The position numbers were made by a program, and so were the translations under genes. Of a stretch of 64,000 bases of DNA, positions 968 to 10,934 are shown piece by piece (position 1 is the first letter of the stretch; every line of letters starts with the position of its first letter). The notes beneath the pieces are model-generated. The model searched no databases. It was not told the origin of the DNA and worked only from the letters and a program-made list of their open reading frames with translations. Location: assembly GCF_000016645.1 (NCBI RefSeq), contig NC_009441.1, forward strand, positions 3,100,001 through 3,164,000, given 5' to 3'. This DNA is from Flavobacterium johnsoniae UW101. GTDB lineage: Bacteria; Bacteroidota; Bacteroidia; Flavobacteriales; Flavobacteriaceae.

Positions 968-1001
968 TTGTAGATTATAATCTACAATTGCTTTGCAATT
1001 G
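968..1001. promoter_or_regulatory. Perfect 20-bp palindrome plus adjacent inverted repeat
   Basis: TTGTAGATTATAATCTACAA (968-987) is a perfect palindrome. It overlaps a second perfect inverted repeat, CAATTGC-TTT-GCAATTG (985-1001). Both lie just upstream of the effector operon (first ATG at 1026). They could be an operator for a dimeric regulator or a 5' RNA hairpin; this is inference. Confidence 0.5.
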
Positions 1002-1025
1002 AAATTAATAACCGCTGTTAATGAT

Positions 1026-1175
1026 ATGGAAAAAGACGAAGACAAAGAAAAAAGGAAACAACAAGTTTTATTTGTAAACCAGGATTATGTACTGCCGTTT
1101 CGGCCTCTTGAACTCAATCACCAGTATTCAGTTTTGTACACAAATCAGTATAGACAATGGAATATCTCTTTTTAG
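1026..1175 (+). CDS. Small hypothetical protein leading the effector operon
   Basis: A 49-aa reading frame from ATG 1026. An upstream in-frame TTG at 993 sits inside the inverted repeat and is less likely as a start. The N-terminus is very charged (MEKDEDKEKRKQQ) and the rest polar/aromatic, ending NQYRQWNISF. It has no signal peptide or membrane segment. It lies 24 bp before the PAAR-like gene in the same direction, suggesting a role in spike or effector handling. No family is recognised. Confidence 0.5.
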   Translation: MEKDEDKEKRKQQVLFVNQDYVLPFRPLELNHQYSVLYTNQYRQWNISF

Positions 1176-1199
1176 TATAAAAATAAAACCTAACACATT

Positions 1200-1685
1200 A
1201 TGAAAAAACATGTTGTTGTAGACGGTGCTTTGTGCAAGTGTAAGTTTAGCGAAGATCAAAAAGCCACAGATATTTTACTGGTAAAATCGCAGAAAAAGCA
1301 TTTTGCAAATGATAAAGGAGCTGATAAAAAACTTATTGCCACAACAAAAGACGTCAATCAAACCTTAAAGAAAGGCACATTTGGCAAATGCACTTTGCAG
1401 CCAACATCAGGAGGGAATGCTCCTTGTGTAGCAGTGCCACTAAAATGGGATAATCCCTATGAAAAAATTACACTGAGCAATCAGGGGAAAATTTTAACCG
1501 AAGACAGTAAAGCGGCATGTAATATAGGCGGACCGGGCTGTATTGAGATTTTTAAACACGGACAGACAGCCGAAGTTGGAATGCAGCAGATACAGAAAGC
1601 AGATCGTGATGCATTAAAACAAATAAATCCGCTGTTAAATCCCGATGATTTAGATGAAAACGATATTTGTTTTTTTATAAAATAA
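1200..1685 (+). CDS. DUF4280 PAAR-like spike protein
   Basis: A 161-aa protein with the pattern of DUF4280 (PAAR-like) proteins. The start reads HVVVDGALCKCKFSE, followed by GTFGKCTLQP, a central NAPCVAVPLKW and GGPGCIEIFKHGQ near the C-terminus. Several Cys residues (in CKC, GKC, APC, AACNI and PGC) could stabilise the fold. In Bacteroidota, DUF4280 proteins sit beside T6SS subtype iii or polymorphic-toxin genes and are thought to cap the VgrG spike and dock an effector. Here the effector starts 8 bp downstream. No VgrG or other T6SS gene is in the window, so this is an orphan spike/effector cassette. Confidence 0.85.
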   Translation: MKKHVVVDGALCKCKFSEDQKATDILLVKSQKKHFANDKGADKKLIATTKDVNQTLKKGTFGKCTLQPTSGGNAPCVAVPLKWDNPYEKITLSNQGKILTEDSKAACNIGGPGCIEIFKHGQTAEVGMQQIQKADRDALKQINPLLNPDDLDENDICFFIK

Positions 1686-1693
1686 GAAGAATT

Positions 1694-4063
1694 ATGGCAA
1701 AACTAAAAATATTTGGAAAAGCCAATCCTGTGGTTGGTACTAAAGAATTTTACTCAATTAAAGATCTTTTTGGAAATTTAGCTTCTGCTCAATTCAACGA
1801 ACCAAATTTTGAAAGCATATCAGATGATCAGGTAAAATGGAGTGTCTGGGTATTAAACGGTAAAACCTGGAAAAAAACTACTGAAAATAATGAAACCGGC
1901 ATAACAGTATGTTATATGTTTTCTCAAAAAAGTTTAAAGAGAAAAAGCATAAGAATGCTCGTTGAAGTCAATGGCGAAAAAGCAGTTCTTGATATTGTAA
2001 CACAAAAAGCATCTCAAGGAAAAATACTGCATGTAGATTTATTAGACAATAATTATAATAAACCTGTCAGACCATTTGCTTATGGCGACTGGATTATTGC
2101 ACGTGTACATTGTGTTGATATGGAGCTGATGCCTGTAAAGGTAACTTTATGGGAAGACGACGGCGATAAAGCCAAACAAAATTCAACAAATGTAAAAATA
2201 GAGATTAAGAAAGGCGATGTATTAAACGGCAAGGCCGATGTTGCTTTTTATCTGGATCCAAGTCATAAATGGCTTGCAAATGCTAAACTGGCTCCCGGAG
2301 ATGAAAACGAAGGAGAATTTCATGAATATTATGTAACAGCAGAAATTTTTGAAAAAGTCTCTAAAAGAATTGCCAGTAAAAATACCAATGTGCCAAACCC
2401 TGATTATAAAAAAGAACCAGAAGCAAAAAAACAAACTCCGGCAGAACAAAAAGGACCGTCTAAAAAAGAAACCAAAAAGATAGCCCTGTCAGACAAAAAA
2501 GTTCAGGATTATCATGAGCAGAAAATTGTTGTGAAAAATGAGATCTCTAAAAATCCTGTCTGGGAAAAGATTAATAGTCTGATGATGGTTGATGTTGGGG
2601 ATTCTATTTGGAATAAGAATCAAGAAAAACATATCTGTCCCAATTGTCTTAAAGATATTACTTTGCATCAATTTAATTTAATGTTTCCTAATTCTACAAA
2701 TTTGTTTAATAAAGGGGAAAATGGGCTTTCTAATACAACGTTACAAGAGTTTATTAATGCATTGAATTCAACCTTAAAAGAATTTAAAATAAATACTTGT
2801 ACTAGAAAAGCATTTTTTCTTGCTCAAATAACAAGAGAGACGGGAGACTTTACTAGAATTGATGAAAATCTAAATTATAAAACGGAAAAAGCATTACACA
2901 ATTTTTGGTCTAAAGGCAGTCATCCATTGTTGTATTCCCAAGCGACTGCTTTTTTTGATGCCCCTGAAAAGTTAGGTAATTATGTTTATAGAGATATTGG
3001 AGAGAATGGTAATGAAAATAGTGGAGATGGATATAAGTTTAGAGGACGAGGATTAATACAAATAACTAGAAAAAAAGGTTATCGAAGATTTGGGGAATAT
3101 TGTGGTATAAATTTAACAACTAATCCTGACTTATTATTAAATGATTTGAATCTATTGGTACGTTCAGCTGGGTGGTATTGGCAGCAAGGAGTTCTTTTGA
3201 AAGATGGTTCAGAAAAAGATATAAATACCATTGCAGATCTTGAAGATTTTACGAAAACAACGAATCTAGTTCATGGTTCTACTTCCGACGTGAAGCAACG
3301 TGAAAATATTCTAAATAAAATAAAGTATGTTCTTAAAACTGATCAATGTAAAAAAACAACAGTTGAAATATTATCTGATGCTGATGTTGAATATCATATT
3401 TTTTATACTGGTATTTTAAAATATAAAGTACAAAATGAAAAAAGAGAGAATGCATCTTACTATTATCACGATAGTTCGGCTACTGTACATGAAATTGGAA
3501 AATATGAATTAAAAAAAATAAGTGACAATTATGGAGGTCAGTATAAAGATAGATTAGGAAGCTCTAACATTTATTTGTTTGATATTAGAAATCTAAATAA
3601 CTATCATCGAGGTAATATTAAATTTACTTTAAAAATGAACCCAGGGACAGATAGGTTTTATATGAATGATGTTACTGTTGCTTCATTTATAGGAGCAATG
3701 TTGGATTGTAGTTTTACAGATTTTATCTTCAATGGATTTAGTGATCACTTAGGTCGCTCTATTGGCAATAGTAAATCTCATAAAAATGGTATGAATGGAG
3801 ATCTTAGATACTTAAGAAAAGATAAATCAGGAAAGAATGTCCATTTGTCTTTAGAATCTGAATTAGGAGATCCGTGTGGATGGAAAGGGATGGATGAAAA
3901 AAGACAAAATGAATTTAATGATGCATTATTTAAATATGGATGGAAAAATATGCTTTCATGGAAGTATAATAAAAAGCTATTACATCATTCAATACATTAT
4001 GAAGATCACCATCATCACTTACACATACAATCTTTTGAACCTAATTTAAAAAAAATAAAATGA
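1694..4063 (+). CDS. Bifunctional peptidoglycan-hydrolase effector (GH19-like + LAS peptidase)
   Basis: 789 aa from ATG 1694 (MAKLKIFGKANPVVG), 8 bp after the spike gene. There is no signal peptide. Residues 1-240 look like a tail/Ig-like delivery region with PFAYGDWIIARV. A Lys/Pro-rich linker spans about 245-285. A CPNC motif lies near 314. A GH19-type lysozyme domain covers about 350-545, with general acid E382 in ITRETGD and the GDGYKFRGRG/LIQIT block near 444-457. The C-terminal 650-789 carries the LAS/MepA zinc signature: H696-x6-D703 in SHKNGMNGDLRY and HxH at 775-777 in EDHHHHLHIQ. The protein should cut both glycan strands and peptide cross-links. It is probably a contractile-system toxin delivered to the rival's periplasm. 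Delivery route is inferred; both catalytic motifs are visible. Confidence 0.8.
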   Translation: MAKLKIFGKANPVVGTKEFYSIKDLFGNLASAQFNEPNFESISDDQVKWSVWVLNGKTWKKTTENNETGITVCYMFSQKSLKRKSIRMLVEVNGEKAVLDIVTQKASQGKILHVDLLDNNYNKPVRPFAYGDWIIARVHCVDMELMPVKVTLWEDDGDKAKQNSTNVKIEIKKGDVLNGKADVAFYLDPSHKWLANAKLAPGDENEGEFHEYYVTAEIFEKVSKRIASKNTNVPNPDYKKEPEAKKQTPAEQKGPSKKETKKIALSDKKVQDYHEQKIVVKNEISKNPVWEKINSLMMVDVGDSIWNKNQEKHICPNCLKDITLHQFNLMFPNSTNLFNKGENGLSNTTLQEFINALNSTLKEFKINTCTRKAFFLAQITRETGDFTRIDENLNYKTEKALHNFWSKGSHPLLYSQATAFFDAPEKLGNYVYRDIGENGNENSGDGYKFRGRGLIQITRKKGYRRFGEYCGINLTTNPDLLLNDLNLLVRSAGWYWQQGVLLKDGSEKDINTIADLEDFTKTTNLVHGSTSDVKQRENILNKIKYVLKTDQCKKTTVEILSDADVEYHIFYTGILKYKVQNEKRENASYYYHDSSATVHEIGKYELKKISDNYGGQYKDRLGSSNIYLFDIRNLNNYHRGNIKFTLKMNPGTDRFYMNDVTVASFIGAMLDCSFTDFIFNGFSDHLGRSIGNSKSHKNGMNGDLRYLRKDKSGKNVHLSLESELGDPCGWKGMDEKRQNEFNDALFKYGWKNMLSWKYNKKLLHHSIHYEDHHHHLHIQSFEPNLKKIK

Positions 4064-4911
4064 GATTTTTTAAAATTATAACAATCTGTTTTTTGGGATA
4101 TTTGATAATTTCTTGTAAAAGAGACAATAGTAAGAAAAATGAAATTACTAAAGAAATAAAAAGTAAATCTGTTACAGATACTTTAATAACTGACATTGAT
4201 TTAAAAAAAATAGGAAAAGAAATAGCAGGAAGAGAAAAAAAGGACATGATAGACAAATATTATTATGCTATAAACAGAGAAGTTGAAAGACCTGAAATGG
4301 CAGATTCATTTATGTCAAATATTGATTCATTGTTTAAAATTTATCATTATAAAGTATTTGTTATAAATAGTATAAAAATTAATTCTTATGTTGTTAAAAT
4401 ACTTTTTGAAGATGCTCAATATATATCAATACTTTTAATACTGAATAAAGAAAATTATCCCAACAATTGTTTAGTAGTTTATGAAAATTTAAAATCAGAA
4501 GTAAACTATAATTGTTATTCTAAAATTACGAACAATATAATAACTATTAATAAAGTTGGCAATTCAAAAAAAACAATCGAAAAGTATATTATAGAACAGA
4601 ATAATTTTTTAGAATATTTTGAAAATTCACAAATTGATATTCCAAAATGGGGACAAGAAGAAATTATTTATACAAAAGACGGACAAGATTCTACATATGA
4701 ATATCAGTATATATTGGAAGGGAAAATAAAAAATCACCTTAAGCATGGTGTTTGGGATGAGAAGAAATACATTCTCCAATACAACAAATCTGTTTGGCTT
4801 CATGGTGAATATATAAATGGCTTAAGAAATGGTGAATGGATTTATGATGAAGGAGATCCATTTAGTAAAACGGAAGTCTATGATATGGGAAAACTAATAA
4901 AAATATATTAA
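4060..4911 (+). CDS. Lipoprotein with MORN-like tail, probable immunity protein
   Basis: 283 aa. The start overlaps the effector stop in an ATGA junction, implying translational coupling. It has a short lipoprotein signal (FLGYLIISC, Cys20) followed by a charged, Lys-rich segment. The C-terminal 60 residues contain MORN/YwqK-like repeats: GKIKNHLKHGVW and GEYINGLRNGEW. Immunity proteins against periplasmic peptidoglycan hydrolases are commonly lipoproteins encoded right after the toxin, so immunity to the 1694-4063 effector is the best reading. It is inferred from position and export, not from a recognised immunity family. Confidence 0.65.
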   Translation: MRFFKIITICFLGYLIISCKRDNSKKNEITKEIKSKSVTDTLITDIDLKKIGKEIAGREKKDMIDKYYYAINREVERPEMADSFMSNIDSLFKIYHYKVFVINSIKINSYVVKILFEDAQYISILLILNKENYPNNCLVVYENLKSEVNYNCYSKITNNIITINKVGNSKKTIEKYIIEQNNFLEYFENSQIDIPKWGQEEIIYTKDGQDSTYEYQYILEGKIKNHLKHGVWDEKKYILQYNKSVWLHGEYINGLRNGEWIYDEGDPFSKTEVYDMGKLIKIY

Positions 4912-5200: not shown

Positions 5201-5995
5201 ATGAAAAAAATAGAAAATTTAATTTTTTTAATTGTATTGATAGTGTTGTGTTCTTGTAAACACAAAGAAGAATATCAATACAAAAGCACTATGGTGAAGA
5301 AAGATTCTCTACTATTAATTAAAGATACAGCTATATATGGAGAATCATCTGAGGGAACAGAAGCTAAACTATTTAAAAAATTATACAGTTGCGATTCTAT
5401 AATGAATATAGAAACTTTTGGAGAAATGGGCAATTCAAAATACATATTTAGATTTAATAAAAAAATATTATATGTAAGGCATATTACAAATCATTACCAA
5501 GAGCCTATTTATATGAATTCAACTCCCAAAATAATAAAAAAGGATACAGTAATATTAAACAATTCTAACAGAAATAAGTTTACAGCTCTTTTTTACGAAT
5601 ATAAAAGCTATTTTATTAAATCAAAAAACAAAAAAGATAAGAATTTTTTAAATCAAAAGTGGTATGGAACATATTTATTTACCATGAATGAGGATAGTGA
5701 TGATTGGCGAGACTTACATGATATTTCCATTACCATAAATAAAGATTCTTTAATTTATTCCGCTAAAGGATTTCAGTTATATCAATTGTATAACCTCTCT
5801 GTAGTTGAAAAAAATGACACATTAAGATTAACATTTGAAAAAGATTTAAATAATACAAATAGTTGGGCGTTGAAAAAAACTAAAAATTTTGGAATAATTA
5901 CTTTTAACAATGGGTGCTATAAATGGGTATGTCCATATATTGATATTAGCTTTAATAATGGAAAAAATAGTACTTACATTTTAAAGAAAGAATAA
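5201..5995 (+). CDS. Lipoprotein, probable immunity to the displaced M15 tip
   Basis: 264 aa with a clear lipoprotein signal (NLIFLIVLIVLCSC, Cys at 19) and a mature region rich in Lys, Asn and Tyr. There is no recognised domain. It lies 11 bp after the M15 fragment, mirroring the effector/lipoprotein arrangement at 1694-4911. By position it is the cognate immunity gene for a toxin whose body has been lost. Retaining the immunity gene after toxin loss would protect against kin that still deliver it. Function is inferred only from context. Confidence 0.6.
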   Translation: MKKIENLIFLIVLIVLCSCKHKEEYQYKSTMVKKDSLLLIKDTAIYGESSEGTEAKLFKKLYSCDSIMNIETFGEMGNSKYIFRFNKKILYVRHITNHYQEPIYMNSTPKIIKKDTVILNNSNRNKFTALFYEYKSYFIKSKNKKDKNFLNQKWYGTYLFTMNEDSDDWRDLHDISITINKDSLIYSAKGFQLYQLYNLSVVEKNDTLRLTFEKDLNNTNSWALKKTKNFGIITFNNGCYKWVCPYIDISFNNGKNSTYILKKE

Positions 5996-7585: not shown

Positions 7586-9313
7586 CTAAAGCACCCTATA
7601 AACAGGATACTGCATATGCGCTTTTTCATAATAAGCAGAATGCTTGTAAATCCAATCCAATTGTGCTTCGGCGTTTTTAGCAAACTCGCGGTCGTTTTGT
7701 TTTTTAGTTTCTAATTCTGCATTTAGAGCTGGATTTTCTTTTAAAAGTTGTCCGGCAGTATCTTCAAAAATATATTCAGAATAATGTTCTTTTTGCTGTA
7801 AAATTGGGTCGAAGAAATTCCAGTTAAAAAACGAATCAACACCTTCTGGTTCAAAAGCTTCTACGATATATTTTACGCCTTTTTGGTTCGTTGGCACGAT
7901 GTAATCACCTTTGGCGAAAGCCATTTTAACGATTTTAGAAGTTACGGTTGTGTTTCTGTGTAAATAATGCCCTTCGTAAGCAGAGGGAACCGTTTTAAAA
8001 TCGGCAATTCTGTAGCTTTCGACTTCTATAATTGTATCGTTTTTAATTTGTTTAAACGAGATATTGTTGTTTTTCAAAAGATCAATAATATTCCAATATC
8101 CTCTCGGCACAATATAAGCTGTAGGAATCACAACTTCTTTAATTGATTTGAATTCTTTAATGTACGGAACGTCTTTTTTGTACGGTTTTGTGCGGTCGTA
8201 ATACAAACGATTTCCTGTTGTAGCGTCGCTTTTTTTGTAACCCGCTTCATATCCTAAAAACGAAAAGGTGGTGGCTTTTGTGCTGTCTAATTCCCATTTT
8301 AAAGTGTATGATTTTTTTGGCTGATATTGCTCTAAATTTTTTACTCTTAAATTTTTAATTTTTTGATAATTTGCATCGGTAAAATCCAAAGTCGATTTCA
8401 TGTATTCGTAGGTCATTTTTACACGTTCGGCATATTTTTTCAGCATGTGCGTTTCTACCACAAAACCAATTGTATTAAACAGCGAAGTATAACCCGTTGT
8501 ATATCGCGGACTATCGACAAACTGCCCAAAACCTTTGTCTGGAGTATCTTTAAAAGAATCGACATAAGGCGTAGTTTCGATTTTCTTTTTCTGAAGATCT
8601 TTTACCAAAGCCGGCATCATTTCGTTGTTCATAAAATCACCCAAAACCGTTCCCAGTTTATTATGCTGTGTCATGATATACGTCAATTTGTATTGATAAT
8701 CAGAACCGTTGCTTACGTGATTGTCGATAAAAACATCGGCATTTATTTTCTGGAAAATCTCCACAAAACTTTTTGTGTTTCGGGTATCTGACTTCATTAA
8801 ATCACGGTTCAAATCGTAGTTTCTGGCATTTCCTCTAAATCCATAAATCTCTGGCCCGTCTTGGTTGGTACGCGTTGTCGAATTTCGGTTTAAAGCACCG
8901 CCAATATTATAAACTGGAATGGTAACCAAAACGGTATTTTTTGGTGCTTTCATTTTTCCTGTTGCCAAATCTCTGTAAAACTGCATTGTTGCGTCAATTC
9001 CGTCTGGTTCTCCAGCGTGGATTCCGTTATTAACGAATAAAACGGCTTTTGTTTTCTGTATTTTATCAAAATCAAATTCCTTGTCAGGATTAAAGGTGAT
9101 CATGTGCAGAGGTTCTCCAGAATCTGTCAGTCCCATTTCCTTCATTTGAATGGTTGGAAAATCAGCTGCAAGCATTTTAAAATAAGCAATTGTTTCCTGA
9201 TACGAAGCAGATTGATTTCCGTTTCCTTTCTCAAAAAACGTATCGTATTTTTTAGTGTTTTGTGCAGTAATGGTTATAGTGAGAAGTGAAAAAAGAAATG
9301 TAAAAAGTTTCAT
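7586..9313 (-). CDS. Secreted M14-family zinc carboxypeptidase
   Basis: 575 aa from ATG 9313 (MKLFTFLFSLLTITITAQ), chosen because it begins at a clean signal peptide. The M14 zinc site is visible: H99-x-x-E102 in IHAGEPDG, the third ligand H199 in FIDNHVSNG, and NRD near residue 169. Catalytic Glu287 lies in FVVETHML. Enzymes of this class trim C-terminal residues from peptides in the periplasm or outside. It is followed by a repeat element and appears to be a single-gene unit. The C-terminal 250 residues form a family-typical accessory region with no other motif recognised. Confidence 0.88.
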   Translation of the reverse strand: MKLFTFLFSLLTITITAQNTKKYDTFFEKGNGNQSASYQETIAYFKMLAADFPTIQMKEMGLTDSGEPLHMITFNPDKEFDFDKIQKTKAVLFVNNGIHAGEPDGIDATMQFYRDLATGKMKAPKNTVLVTIPVYNIGGALNRNSTTRTNQDGPEIYGFRGNARNYDLNRDLMKSDTRNTKSFVEIFQKINADVFIDNHVSNGSDYQYKLTYIMTQHNKLGTVLGDFMNNEMMPALVKDLQKKKIETTPYVDSFKDTPDKGFGQFVDSPRYTTGYTSLFNTIGFVVETHMLKKYAERVKMTYEYMKSTLDFTDANYQKIKNLRVKNLEQYQPKKSYTLKWELDSTKATTFSFLGYEAGYKKSDATTGNRLYYDRTKPYKKDVPYIKEFKSIKEVVIPTAYIVPRGYWNIIDLLKNNNISFKQIKNDTIIEVESYRIADFKTVPSAYEGHYLHRNTTVTSKIVKMAFAKGDYIVPTNQKGVKYIVEAFEPEGVDSFFNWNFFDPILQQKEHYSEYIFEDTAGQLLKENPALNAELETKKQNDREFAKNAEAQLDWIYKHSAYYEKAHMQYPVYRVL

Positions 9314-9350
9314 GGTTTTGGTTTTATAGTAAATCAAATATATAGTTTTT

Positions 9351-9535
9351 TGTTTCAAGTTTCAGGTTTCAAGTTTGATGTGCGTCGTGTTTTTTTAACC
9401 GCAAAGAGCGCAAAGGGTTACGCAAAGTTCGCAAAGTTTATGTTCAAGGCATTGCGAACTTTGCGTTTTTTAAAACCTAGTATATATAATTCCTTGCGCT
9501 CTTTGCGGTTAAATAAACTTGAAACCTGAAACAAG
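9351..9535. repeat. Long nested inverted repeat
   Basis: The outer arms TTTCAAGTTTCAGGTTTCAA (from 9352) and AACTTGAAACCTGAAAC (to about 9533) enclose inner arms TTAACCGCAAAGAGCGCAAAG (9395-9415) and CTTTGCGCTCTTTGCGGTTAA (about 9492-9512). The centre repeats GCAAAGTT/AACTTTGC. This is a typical Flavobacterium intergenic palindrome, and between M14 and helicase genes it may act as a transcription barrier. Confidence 0.7.
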
Positions 9536-9572
9536 AAAAACTTGAAACAACTTTTTTGACTACTTTTGCAAA

Positions 9573-10934
9573 ATGAATAAAAATCACCATTCCAACAATA
9601 TACTTTCGAATTTAGGGATTCAGAGCCTGAACGAAATGCAGGAAACTGCTCAGGATGTAATTCTGAACGATAATAACGTTTTACTGCTTTCGCCAACGGG
9701 ATCAGGAAAAACGCTGGCATTTTTGCTTCCGGTTTTAGAATTATTACAGCCTGAAATTCTTTCGGTTCAATGTTTAATTTTGGTTCCGTCGCGCGAATTG
9801 GGACTTCAGATTGAACAGGTTTGGAAGAAAATGGGAACGCAGTACAAAGTAAACATTTGTTACGGCGGACACTCTATTGATACTGAAATCAAAAATTTAA
9901 GCAATCCTCCGGCAGTTTTAATTGGAACGCCTGGAAGAATTGCCGATCATATTGACAGAGAAACTTTTAGAACTGATAAAATTCAGACTTTAATTTTAGA
10001 TGAATTTGACAAATCGCTTCAATTAGGGTTTCACGAGCAGATGTCCTTTATTATTGGCAGATTACCAAAAGTAAATAAACGGGTTTTGGTTTCAGCAACT
10101 TCTGATATTGAAATTCCAAAATATACACGAGTGGTAAACCCAACGGTTTTGGATTTTATTCCGGAAGAAGAGGAGAAAGCAAATCTTTCGATGAAAATGA
10201 TTGTTTCGCCAAGTAAAGATAAATTAGAAAGCTTGTTTAATTTAATCTGCTCTTTAAAATCAGAGTCGGCTATTATTTTTTGTAATCATCGTGATGCTGC
10301 AGAACGCATCAGTGACACTTTGAACGAAAAAGGCATTTATGCTACTTATTATCATGGCGGAATGGATCAGGACGAACGTGAACGTGCTTTGATTCAGTTT
10401 AGAAACGGAAGCATCAGCTACCTCATTACAACAGATCTTGCCGCACGCGGACTGGATATTCCTGAAATGAAACATGTTATTCATTATCATTTACCTTTAA
10501 AAGAAGACGAGTTTACGCATCGTAACGGACGTACAGCACGTATGCAGGCAACAGGAACGGCTTATATTATTGTTCACGAAAGTGAGAAAAAACTAGATTA
10601 TATCGATTATGATATGCAGGTTTTAGACGTTAAAAATATAACGTCGCTGCCTAAACCTCCGCAATTTCAAACTATATACATTAGCGGTGGTAAAAAGACA
10701 AAATTAAATAAGTTTGATATCGTAGGTTTCTTTTCTCAAAAAGGGAAATTAGAAAAAGACGATTTAGGACTTATCGAAGTAAAAGATTTTGTTTCGTTTG
10801 CAGCAGTAAAATTCGGTAAGGTAAAAGATCTGCTGAAAGCGGTAAAAGATGAAAAAATGAAGGGTAAAAAATTTAAAATTGAAGTTGCCCGCAACGTTAT
10901 AAAGAAAGAAGAAGATAAAAATAAGAAATTTTAG
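9573..10934 (+). CDS. DEAD-box ATP-dependent RNA helicase with DbpA-type RNA-binding tail
   Basis: 453 aa. Superfamily-2 motifs appear in order: motif I SPTGSGKT (40-47), PSRELG (72-77), TPGR (119-122), motif II as DEFD (143-146), a DEFD variant of DEAD, SAT, then the C-terminal helicase lobe with TTDLAARGLD and HRNGRTAR. Residues about 375-450 (YISGGKKTKLNKFDIVGFFS) match the DbpA RNA-binding fold that targets 23S rRNA. A role in ribosome assembly is likely. A DbpA-like name is reasonable, but orthology was not tested. Confidence 0.9.
   Translation: MNKNHHSNNILSNLGIQSLNEMQETAQDVILNDNNVLLLSPTGSGKTLAFLLPVLELLQPEILSVQCLILVPSRELGLQIEQVWKKMGTQYKVNICYGGHSIDTEIKNLSNPPAVLIGTPGRIADHIDRETFRTDKIQTLILDEFDKSLQLGFHEQMSFIIGRLPKVNKRVLVSATSDIEIPKYTRVVNPTVLDFIPEEEEKANLSMKMIVSPSKDKLESLFNLICSLKSESAIIFCNHRDAAERISDTLNEKGIYATYYHGGMDQDERERALIQFRNGSISYLITTDLAARGLDIPEMKHVIHYHLPLKEDEFTHRNGRTARMQATGTAYIIVHESEKKLDYIDYDMQVLDVKNITSLPKPPQFQTIYISGGKKTKLNKFDIVGFFSQKGKLEKDDLGLIEVKDFVSFAAVKFGKVKDLLKAVKDEKMKGKKFKIEVARNVIKKEEDKNKKF

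Follow-up and report, generated by a model that had tools for sequence, protein, structure and literature searches.

What would a 789-residue protein with two apparent peptidoglycan-cutting domains do for the soil bacterium Flavobacterium johnsoniae UW101, how would it leave the cell, and how would its producer survive it? These questions are raised by an open reading frame in a 64,000-nucleotide stretch of contig NC_009441.1 (positions 3,100,001 to 3,164,000), referred to here as the window. From sequence comparison and structure prediction, we consider it likely that the protein is an antibacterial cargo effector of a subtype iii type VI secretion system (T6SSiii): a carrier region would travel with a spike-tip protein and an adapter, a GH19 and a LAS domain would act as two wall-cutting blades, and a lipoprotein would provide immunity. 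The effector and its parts are as follows:

1694 to 4063, plus strand: predicted two-bladed effector, 789 aa (open reading frame, Pfam match and named residues)
1694 to 2629, plus strand: carrier module, aa 1-312, with Ig-like beta domains (aa 1-240) and a disordered linker
2636 to 3358, plus strand: GH19 lysozyme/endolysin-type domain, aa 315-555, with conserved E382 and E391
3386 to 4060, plus strand: LAS-fold, MepA-like predicted metallopeptidase domain, aa 565-789, with putative metal or catalytic residues H696, D703, H775 and H777

A preliminary description of the window had proposed a GH19-type lysozyme and a LAS peptidase from a handful of residues, all of which are present when the protein is read from the ATG at 1694: E382 (codon 2837-2839), D445 inside the GDGYKFRGRG block, H696, D703, H775 and H777. 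The GH19-type domain was borne out by the Pfam model for GH19 (PF00182), which scores 29.1 bits against a cut-off of 25.5. E382 is invariant across 37 aligned sequences, in which E391 and the GDG-RGRG block are also conserved, and both the predicted fold and the conserved catalytic glutamates fit GH19. Judging by this fold and these residues, the domain would cut glycan strands. The GH19 family includes chitinases, and databases call relatives 'predicted chitinase', which would point to fungi or other chitin-bearing organisms as targets instead of bacteria. However, the nearest folds and sequences are those of phage endolysins and of the TseP lysozyme, not those of plant chitinases, at least one segment of a wall-enzyme family is present in 119 of the best 120 carrier relatives, and a lipoprotein gene follows the effector. 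A chitinase-type effector was therefore considered and rejected as very improbable.

For the second blade, bare motifs are weak evidence, since H-x6-D and HxH each occur twice within the effector itself, and conservation was taken as the test instead. Across the same 37 sequences, D703 never varies, and conservation reaches at least 90% at H696, H772, H775 and H777. A second alignment, of 32 rows and focused on the C-terminal domain, agrees with this: no variation is seen there at H696, D703 and H775 (numbered H135, D142 and H214), and H772 and H777 are again at least 90% conserved. The H-x6-D and HxH ligand set of the LAS fold is thus conserved, as a putative metal site, and the predicted structure matches LAS peptidases, with a fold common to MepA and M15. 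The LAS signature proposed earlier held in this sense, and the suggested profile search succeeded for Glyco_hydro_19. For the C-terminal domain it returned no M74 or M15 match at E up to 1 (best Pfam E-value 0.16); NCBIfam gave no match at E up to 1 either, and PHROG nothing convincing (best E 0.019). In view of the missing Pfam match, the domain is filed only as a MepA-like LAS fold and not as a family member. The MepA murein endopeptidase (PDB 1u10, 1tzp) shares 10-11% identity with it, and Pfam leaves the domain unmatched at E up to 0.1. Fold and conserved residues together suggest that it would cut peptide cross-links or stems. Weighing against this are the modest Foldseek E-values to MepA (8e-3) and the invisibility of the domain to Pfam. 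We regard a non-catalytic LAS-fold binding module as improbable. The same domain is also found outside the carrier: at four such loci inspected, it forms the end of an Rhs-like protein (L147), of another large protein (L148) and of proteins of about 305-324 aa at L141 and L145, one of which has a clear signal-peptide-like start (the Rhs-like and signal-peptide calls were made by eye). Because a lipoprotein gene lies directly after each of these four proteins, as in the carrier-borne case, the LAS domain looks like a travelling toxin module.

How the effector would be exported is suggested by its neighbours. The gene order is truncated adapter, DUF4280, effector, lipoprotein and second lipoprotein; 8 bases separate the DUF4280 stop codon from the effector ATG, and the effector stop overlaps the ATG of the first lipoprotein gene by 4 bases:

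993 to 1175, plus strand: remnant of an adapter gene (gene start only; homologous stretch 1026-1142)
1200 to 1685, plus strand: DUF4280 PAAR-like spike-tip protein, 161 aa (PF14107, E 2.7e-18; PDB 9jg8_B, E 4.1e-14)
4060 to 4911, plus strand: candidate immunity lipoprotein, 283 aa, abutting the effector (lipobox MRFFKIITICFLGYLIISC)
5201 to 5995, plus strand: second lipoprotein gene, 264 aa (lipobox; weak DUF5991 match, E 0.012, below cut-off)

The effector had been placed behind a PAAR-like spike. The spike protein is real, scoring 67 bits with PF14107 against a cut-off of 26.3, but it is the product of a separate gene and not fused to the effector. The DUF4280 family is described as having a PAAR-like fold, and Fjoh_3275/Fte1 is named as one of its members, in the accessible parts of PMC5014421. 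The chain matched by the DUF4280 protein of the window, 9jg8_B, belongs to a solved Bacteroides fragilis cargo complex, and another chain of this complex, 9jg8_A ('Bacteroides T6SS Adapter Protein C'), is matched by an adapter paralogue at 7602-8675 of locus L010 (E 2.5e-10). A DUF4280 gene lies directly upstream of the effector at 26 of 32 loci, two of these 26 being from the F. johnsoniae genome itself, and upstream of 41 of 58 non-identical effectors. The effector has a carrier domain of its own and, by analogy with the B. fragilis complex, most likely travels together with the DUF4280 protein and an adapter. The Ig-like carrier would dock with both onto the VgrG spike, as homology and fold suggest from the BtpeA-BtaeB-BtapC assembly, and the toxin would be fired into the periplasm of a neighbouring cell. 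The genome (6,096,872 bases, one contig) has four DUF4280 matches and three carriers. The fourth DUF4280 is fused, in a 1347-aa protein (L011, 6265-10308) with a weak LysM, the DUF4280 and a CHAP domain. A DUF3289 gene adjoins vgrG elsewhere (L012, 13195-14841), and in the PDB, chain 9jg8_B goes by the name of a DUF3289 family protein. At both L009 and L010, the gene immediately before the adapter (2904-3902 and 8692-9663, respectively) encodes, as judged by eye, a protein with multiple membrane spans, and the two are similar; NCBIfam has no model for the one at L010.

The T6SSiii itself, expected elsewhere in the genome by the preliminary description, was found. TssC is matched by PF17541 (E 2e-236), TssO, a gp25/TssE-type protein, VgrG and TssF are above cut-off, TssK is weak, and the T6SSiii profiles PF17541 and PF17561 are both matched; a contractile system is therefore not absent. 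The TssR profile PF17643 had no match in the genome, nor in the controls, so this null does not show that TssR is absent. The L010 paralogue, with carrier, GH19-like and LAS segments, lies about 6 kb from tssC. Among 249 genomes of the genus (own included), the carrier is present in 31 and TssC (PF17541) in 42, with 26 genomes having both, 5 the carrier only, 16 TssC only and 202 neither one (Fisher p 1.5e-19, not corrected for relatedness). In a wider family draw of 219 genomes, the carrier is found in 2 (own and G093), both TssC-positive, and TssC in 25. In the TssC-positive genomes, 22 of 43 carrier genes, from 19 of the 26 genomes, are within 30 kb of tssC; this tally entered 48 of 49 carrier rows, five of them from TssC-negative genomes. 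Delivery by an eCIS was rejected in view of the T6SSiii genes of the genome and their nearness to a paralogue, although no search for eCIS genes themselves was made.

Several observations weigh against this delivery route. The carrier can be likened to BtaeB at most by a fold match with a large rmsd, and an hmmsearch of the PDB with a 9-row carrier profile, at E up to 10, brought up neither BtaeB nor any other sequence of note. No DUF4280 gene is directly upstream of 17 of the 58 effectors, and five carrier genomes are TssC-negative (G271, G275, G319, G370 and G446). Three of these five are also without an adjacent DUF4280 gene. Finally, the adapter gene beside the effector is truncated, so that delivery may call for a different adapter, or the locus may be in decay. 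What is left of the gene encodes 39 aa that match, at 87% identity, the first part of an adapter frame which is open in the L009 island (3950-4813). About 725 bases of the gene interior are gone relative to this island, whose flanking DNA is 92% identical. The window could accordingly be read as an orphan copy, a duplicate of L009 that lost its adapter and is no longer delivered. Against such decay, the DUF4280, effector and lipoprotein frames are open, their spacing is as tight as at other loci, and at two other loci of the genome (L009 and L010) the adapter frame is open; we thus judge an undelivered remnant to be unlikely, and delivery as a T6SSiii cargo remains our preferred reading.

The effector is one of a large family that combines this carrier with many different pairs of predicted wall cutters. 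Window positions 1159-2622 have 92.4% DNA identity to the L009 island, and this identity ends at codon 310, at the end of the carrier, after which the payloads diverge. Likewise, another F. johnsoniae protein (P0014) is 99% identical over the carrier, yet has an M23 payload. Payloads have thus been swapped behind a near-constant carrier. By profiles built for this analysis, the three carriers of the genome each bear a GH19-like domain together with a peptidase-like one, which is LAS in the window, M23 in L009 and LAS in L010; Pfam finds nothing in the L010 protein. The carrier search gave 260 proteins, and the family analysis used the best 120 of these. Their C-terminal parts were segmented with the profiles built here, on which the domain tallies depend, and segments were named from Pfam or PDB matches of representatives, not from scanning all 120 (D02, D10, D16, D17, D23, D24, D26 and D28 have no assigned name; D21 is DUF5675). 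An assigned glycan cutter together with an assigned peptide or amide cutter is present in 68 of the best 120, the latter class comprising CHAP, LAS, M23, VanY, Amidase_2 and YkuD, an L,D-transpeptidase family in Pfam counted here as peptide class. Ten more contain D14, a segment that resembles 9jg8_C at its C39-like end (E 2.7e-18), bringing the number to 78. Apart from the 68, 48 have a glycan cutter with no assigned peptide cutter (the ten with D14 included), 3 a peptide cutter only and 1 neither. The glycan cutter comes first in all 68 assigned pairs, and the first-slot families among the 78 are GH19, a lytic transglycosylase (D01; 9udh, E 4e-19) and a lambda-lysozyme-like segment (D15).

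The two domains had been called independent. They are indeed two distinct wall-hydrolase-like domains, but their independence is partial. The LAS domain occurs with a lytic transglycosylase in place of GH19 in P0068 and P0071, whereas among 165 proteins compared, only P0100, which itself ends inside GH19, combines a GH19 domain (40% identity or more) with the lack of a LAS match. As this is the sole such case, fully independent shuffling of both slots is weakened. The preliminary description also supposed that a toxin making both kinds of cut would be hard to resist by a single wall change, which may be so. The family as a whole has the features of polymorphic toxins, namely a constant carrier, varied payloads and an adjacent, predicted periplasmic, candidate immunity gene.

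How the producer would survive was approached through this last gene. The sample comprised 83 stretches (L053-L132, L009, L010 and the window), with 81 effectors, 61 of them non-identical; near-identical ones were kept. The gene after the effector shares its strand in 57 of 57 cases and lies no more than 30 bases away in 56; in 52 it counts as a lipoprotein by a simple rule, one that is satisfied by 3 of 50 other window genes. For the pair test we used 56 effectors whose payload comprises two segments or more (in L077, these are a single domain split in two), leaving out payload pairs more than 90% identical and counting homology only over at least half the lipoprotein length. This coverage was set because a comparison at any length was inflated by a common module of about 60 aa, and the test was repeated at 50% coverage or more. 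The module is C-terminal, has about 45-80% identity, is common to the otherwise different lipoproteins of L058, L082, L083, L084, L092 and L127, and looks by eye like a bacterial SH3 domain. Adjacent lipoproteins are homologous in 53 of 73 pairs that have both end enzymes in common and in 8 of 1010 that have neither; among pairs sharing only the last enzyme they are so in 9 of 34, against 12 of 420 sharing only the first. The p-value of this difference (4e-6) is only indicative, since effector pairs are not independent, and the other 25 of the 34 pairs have no common immunity family.

For the window lipoprotein, relatives were found in only 5 of the 249 genus genomes, own included. In G294, the gene for an 89% identical lipoprotein comes right behind a broken piece of this LAS domain, and in G296 a broken relative adjoins a LAS tail; G400, with two lipoprotein copies, and G274 have no LAS match in the genome. 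This co-inheritance suggests that the lipoprotein encoded at 4060-4911 would protect the producer from the periplasm, most probably by blocking the C-terminal LAS blade. A second immunity gene for the first blade was also considered and rejected: the second downstream gene, usable in 45 of 61 effectors, is not associated with the first enzyme (11 of 286 pairs with that enzyme alone in common, 17 of 633 with neither) or with the last (0 of 22 pairs). Further arrays of downstream lipoprotein genes, resembling orphan immunity genes, are seen at L064 and at T6SS loci generally.

Tentatively, we propose as quite conceivable that the T6SSiii of Bacteroidota has a dedicated chassis, made up of a BtaeB-like Ig carrier, a glycan cutter (at least three families) and a peptide or amide cutter (at least seven families), with a single lipoprotein immunity gene answering the last blade only. 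In that case the first blade would open the wall unopposed, the producer would survive it by other means, and no single acquired gene would make rivals immune. Alternatively, only the C-terminal blade would be a true toxin, and GH19 an accessory that opens or binds the wall, to which the producer is tolerant and for which no immunity gene is needed. The tracking of the last enzyme by the lipoproteins and the unlinked second gene both speak for this, as does the effector Awe1, whose N-terminal blade is reported as not toxic to self and whose C-terminal blade as toxic (PMC12135965, as far as accessible). On the other side, E382, E391 and the GDG-RGRG block are conserved, a single immunity protein could block both blades, and for Tae17 the transglycosylase is described, in the portion of PMC11796386 at hand, as having mattered more than the amidase in killing Escherichia coli. 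A purely accessory GH19 is hence possible, if somewhat doubtful.

Single T6SS effectors cutting both glycan and peptide or amide bonds have already been published (PMC11893102, PMC11796386 and PMC12135965, each available to us in part), and the effector is best placed among them by comparison. Among the closest systems, BtaeB/BtpeA/BtapC of B. fragilis (PDB 9jdh, 9jg8) is akin to it by sequence in the DUF4280 partner (9jg8_B) and the adapter (9jg8_A); in the carrier it may be akin by fold, given the large rmsd mentioned above. Chain 9jg8_C is taken as BtaeB because the carrier fold matches this same chain. Its C39-like end is the second enzyme in some carrier relatives, whereas the chain is named after this one peptidase and the window effector has GH19 plus LAS. 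In 9jg8_B, moreover, the matched part is the first 144 residues of a 608-aa protein, unlike the stand-alone DUF4280 gene of the window. No paper on 9jdh or 9jg8 was found in the open-access literature. In TseP from Aeromonas dhakensis, an N-terminal amidase also restores secretion and binds VgrG2 (PMC11893102), while the window effector, compared with what the accessible text describes, keeps its carrier apart from the enzymes and has LAS as its C-terminal domain. Tae17 from Acinetobacter baumannii is likewise a bifunctional wall hydrolase, with transglycosylase and amidase, but its enzymes are others, it is carried by VgrG17 and it is not of the Bacteroidota T6SSiii (PMC11796386). WHIX proteins are polymorphic carriers of wall-targeting toxins, including chitinase-like/GH19 C-termini and 13 MepA-like N-termini, and mostly flanked by signal-peptide genes; in their double-bladed members WHIX stands between the two blades, and Awe1 requires a pair of immunity proteins (PMC12135965, in its available sections). 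In the window, this arrangement was not encountered, the upstream gene being DUF4280 and both enzymes lying C-terminal to the carrier (the WHIX motif was not searched for), and the adjacent lipoprotein tends to track the second blade.

The carrier family is not described in the open-access literature found, most subscription papers lying outside that search, and no such family is named in the accessible parts of PMC10781749, PMC8651086, PMC11854122 or PMC11883445. The predicted effector would thus differ from published two-bladed ones in its chassis (Bacteroidota, T6SSiii, BtaeB-like carrier and separate DUF4280 tip), in its blade order and in an immunity gene tending to follow the second blade. 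Two-bladed effectors have been described for proteobacterial T6SS, and this one would carry the idea over to Bacteroidota with their distinct T6SSiii; the family offers a large natural set of paired predicted wall cutters with adjacent candidate immunity lipoproteins. Which blade the single adjacent immunity gene answers, and how the producer survives the other, become testable questions, and the genus includes, in F. johnsoniae, a non-pathogen that is genetically tractable. Finally, a C-x(1,2)-C motif is found near the junction between carrier and payload (aa 315-318 in the window, positions 2636-2647) in 116 of 143 segmented relatives, where it may represent a zinc knuckle or a recombination point.
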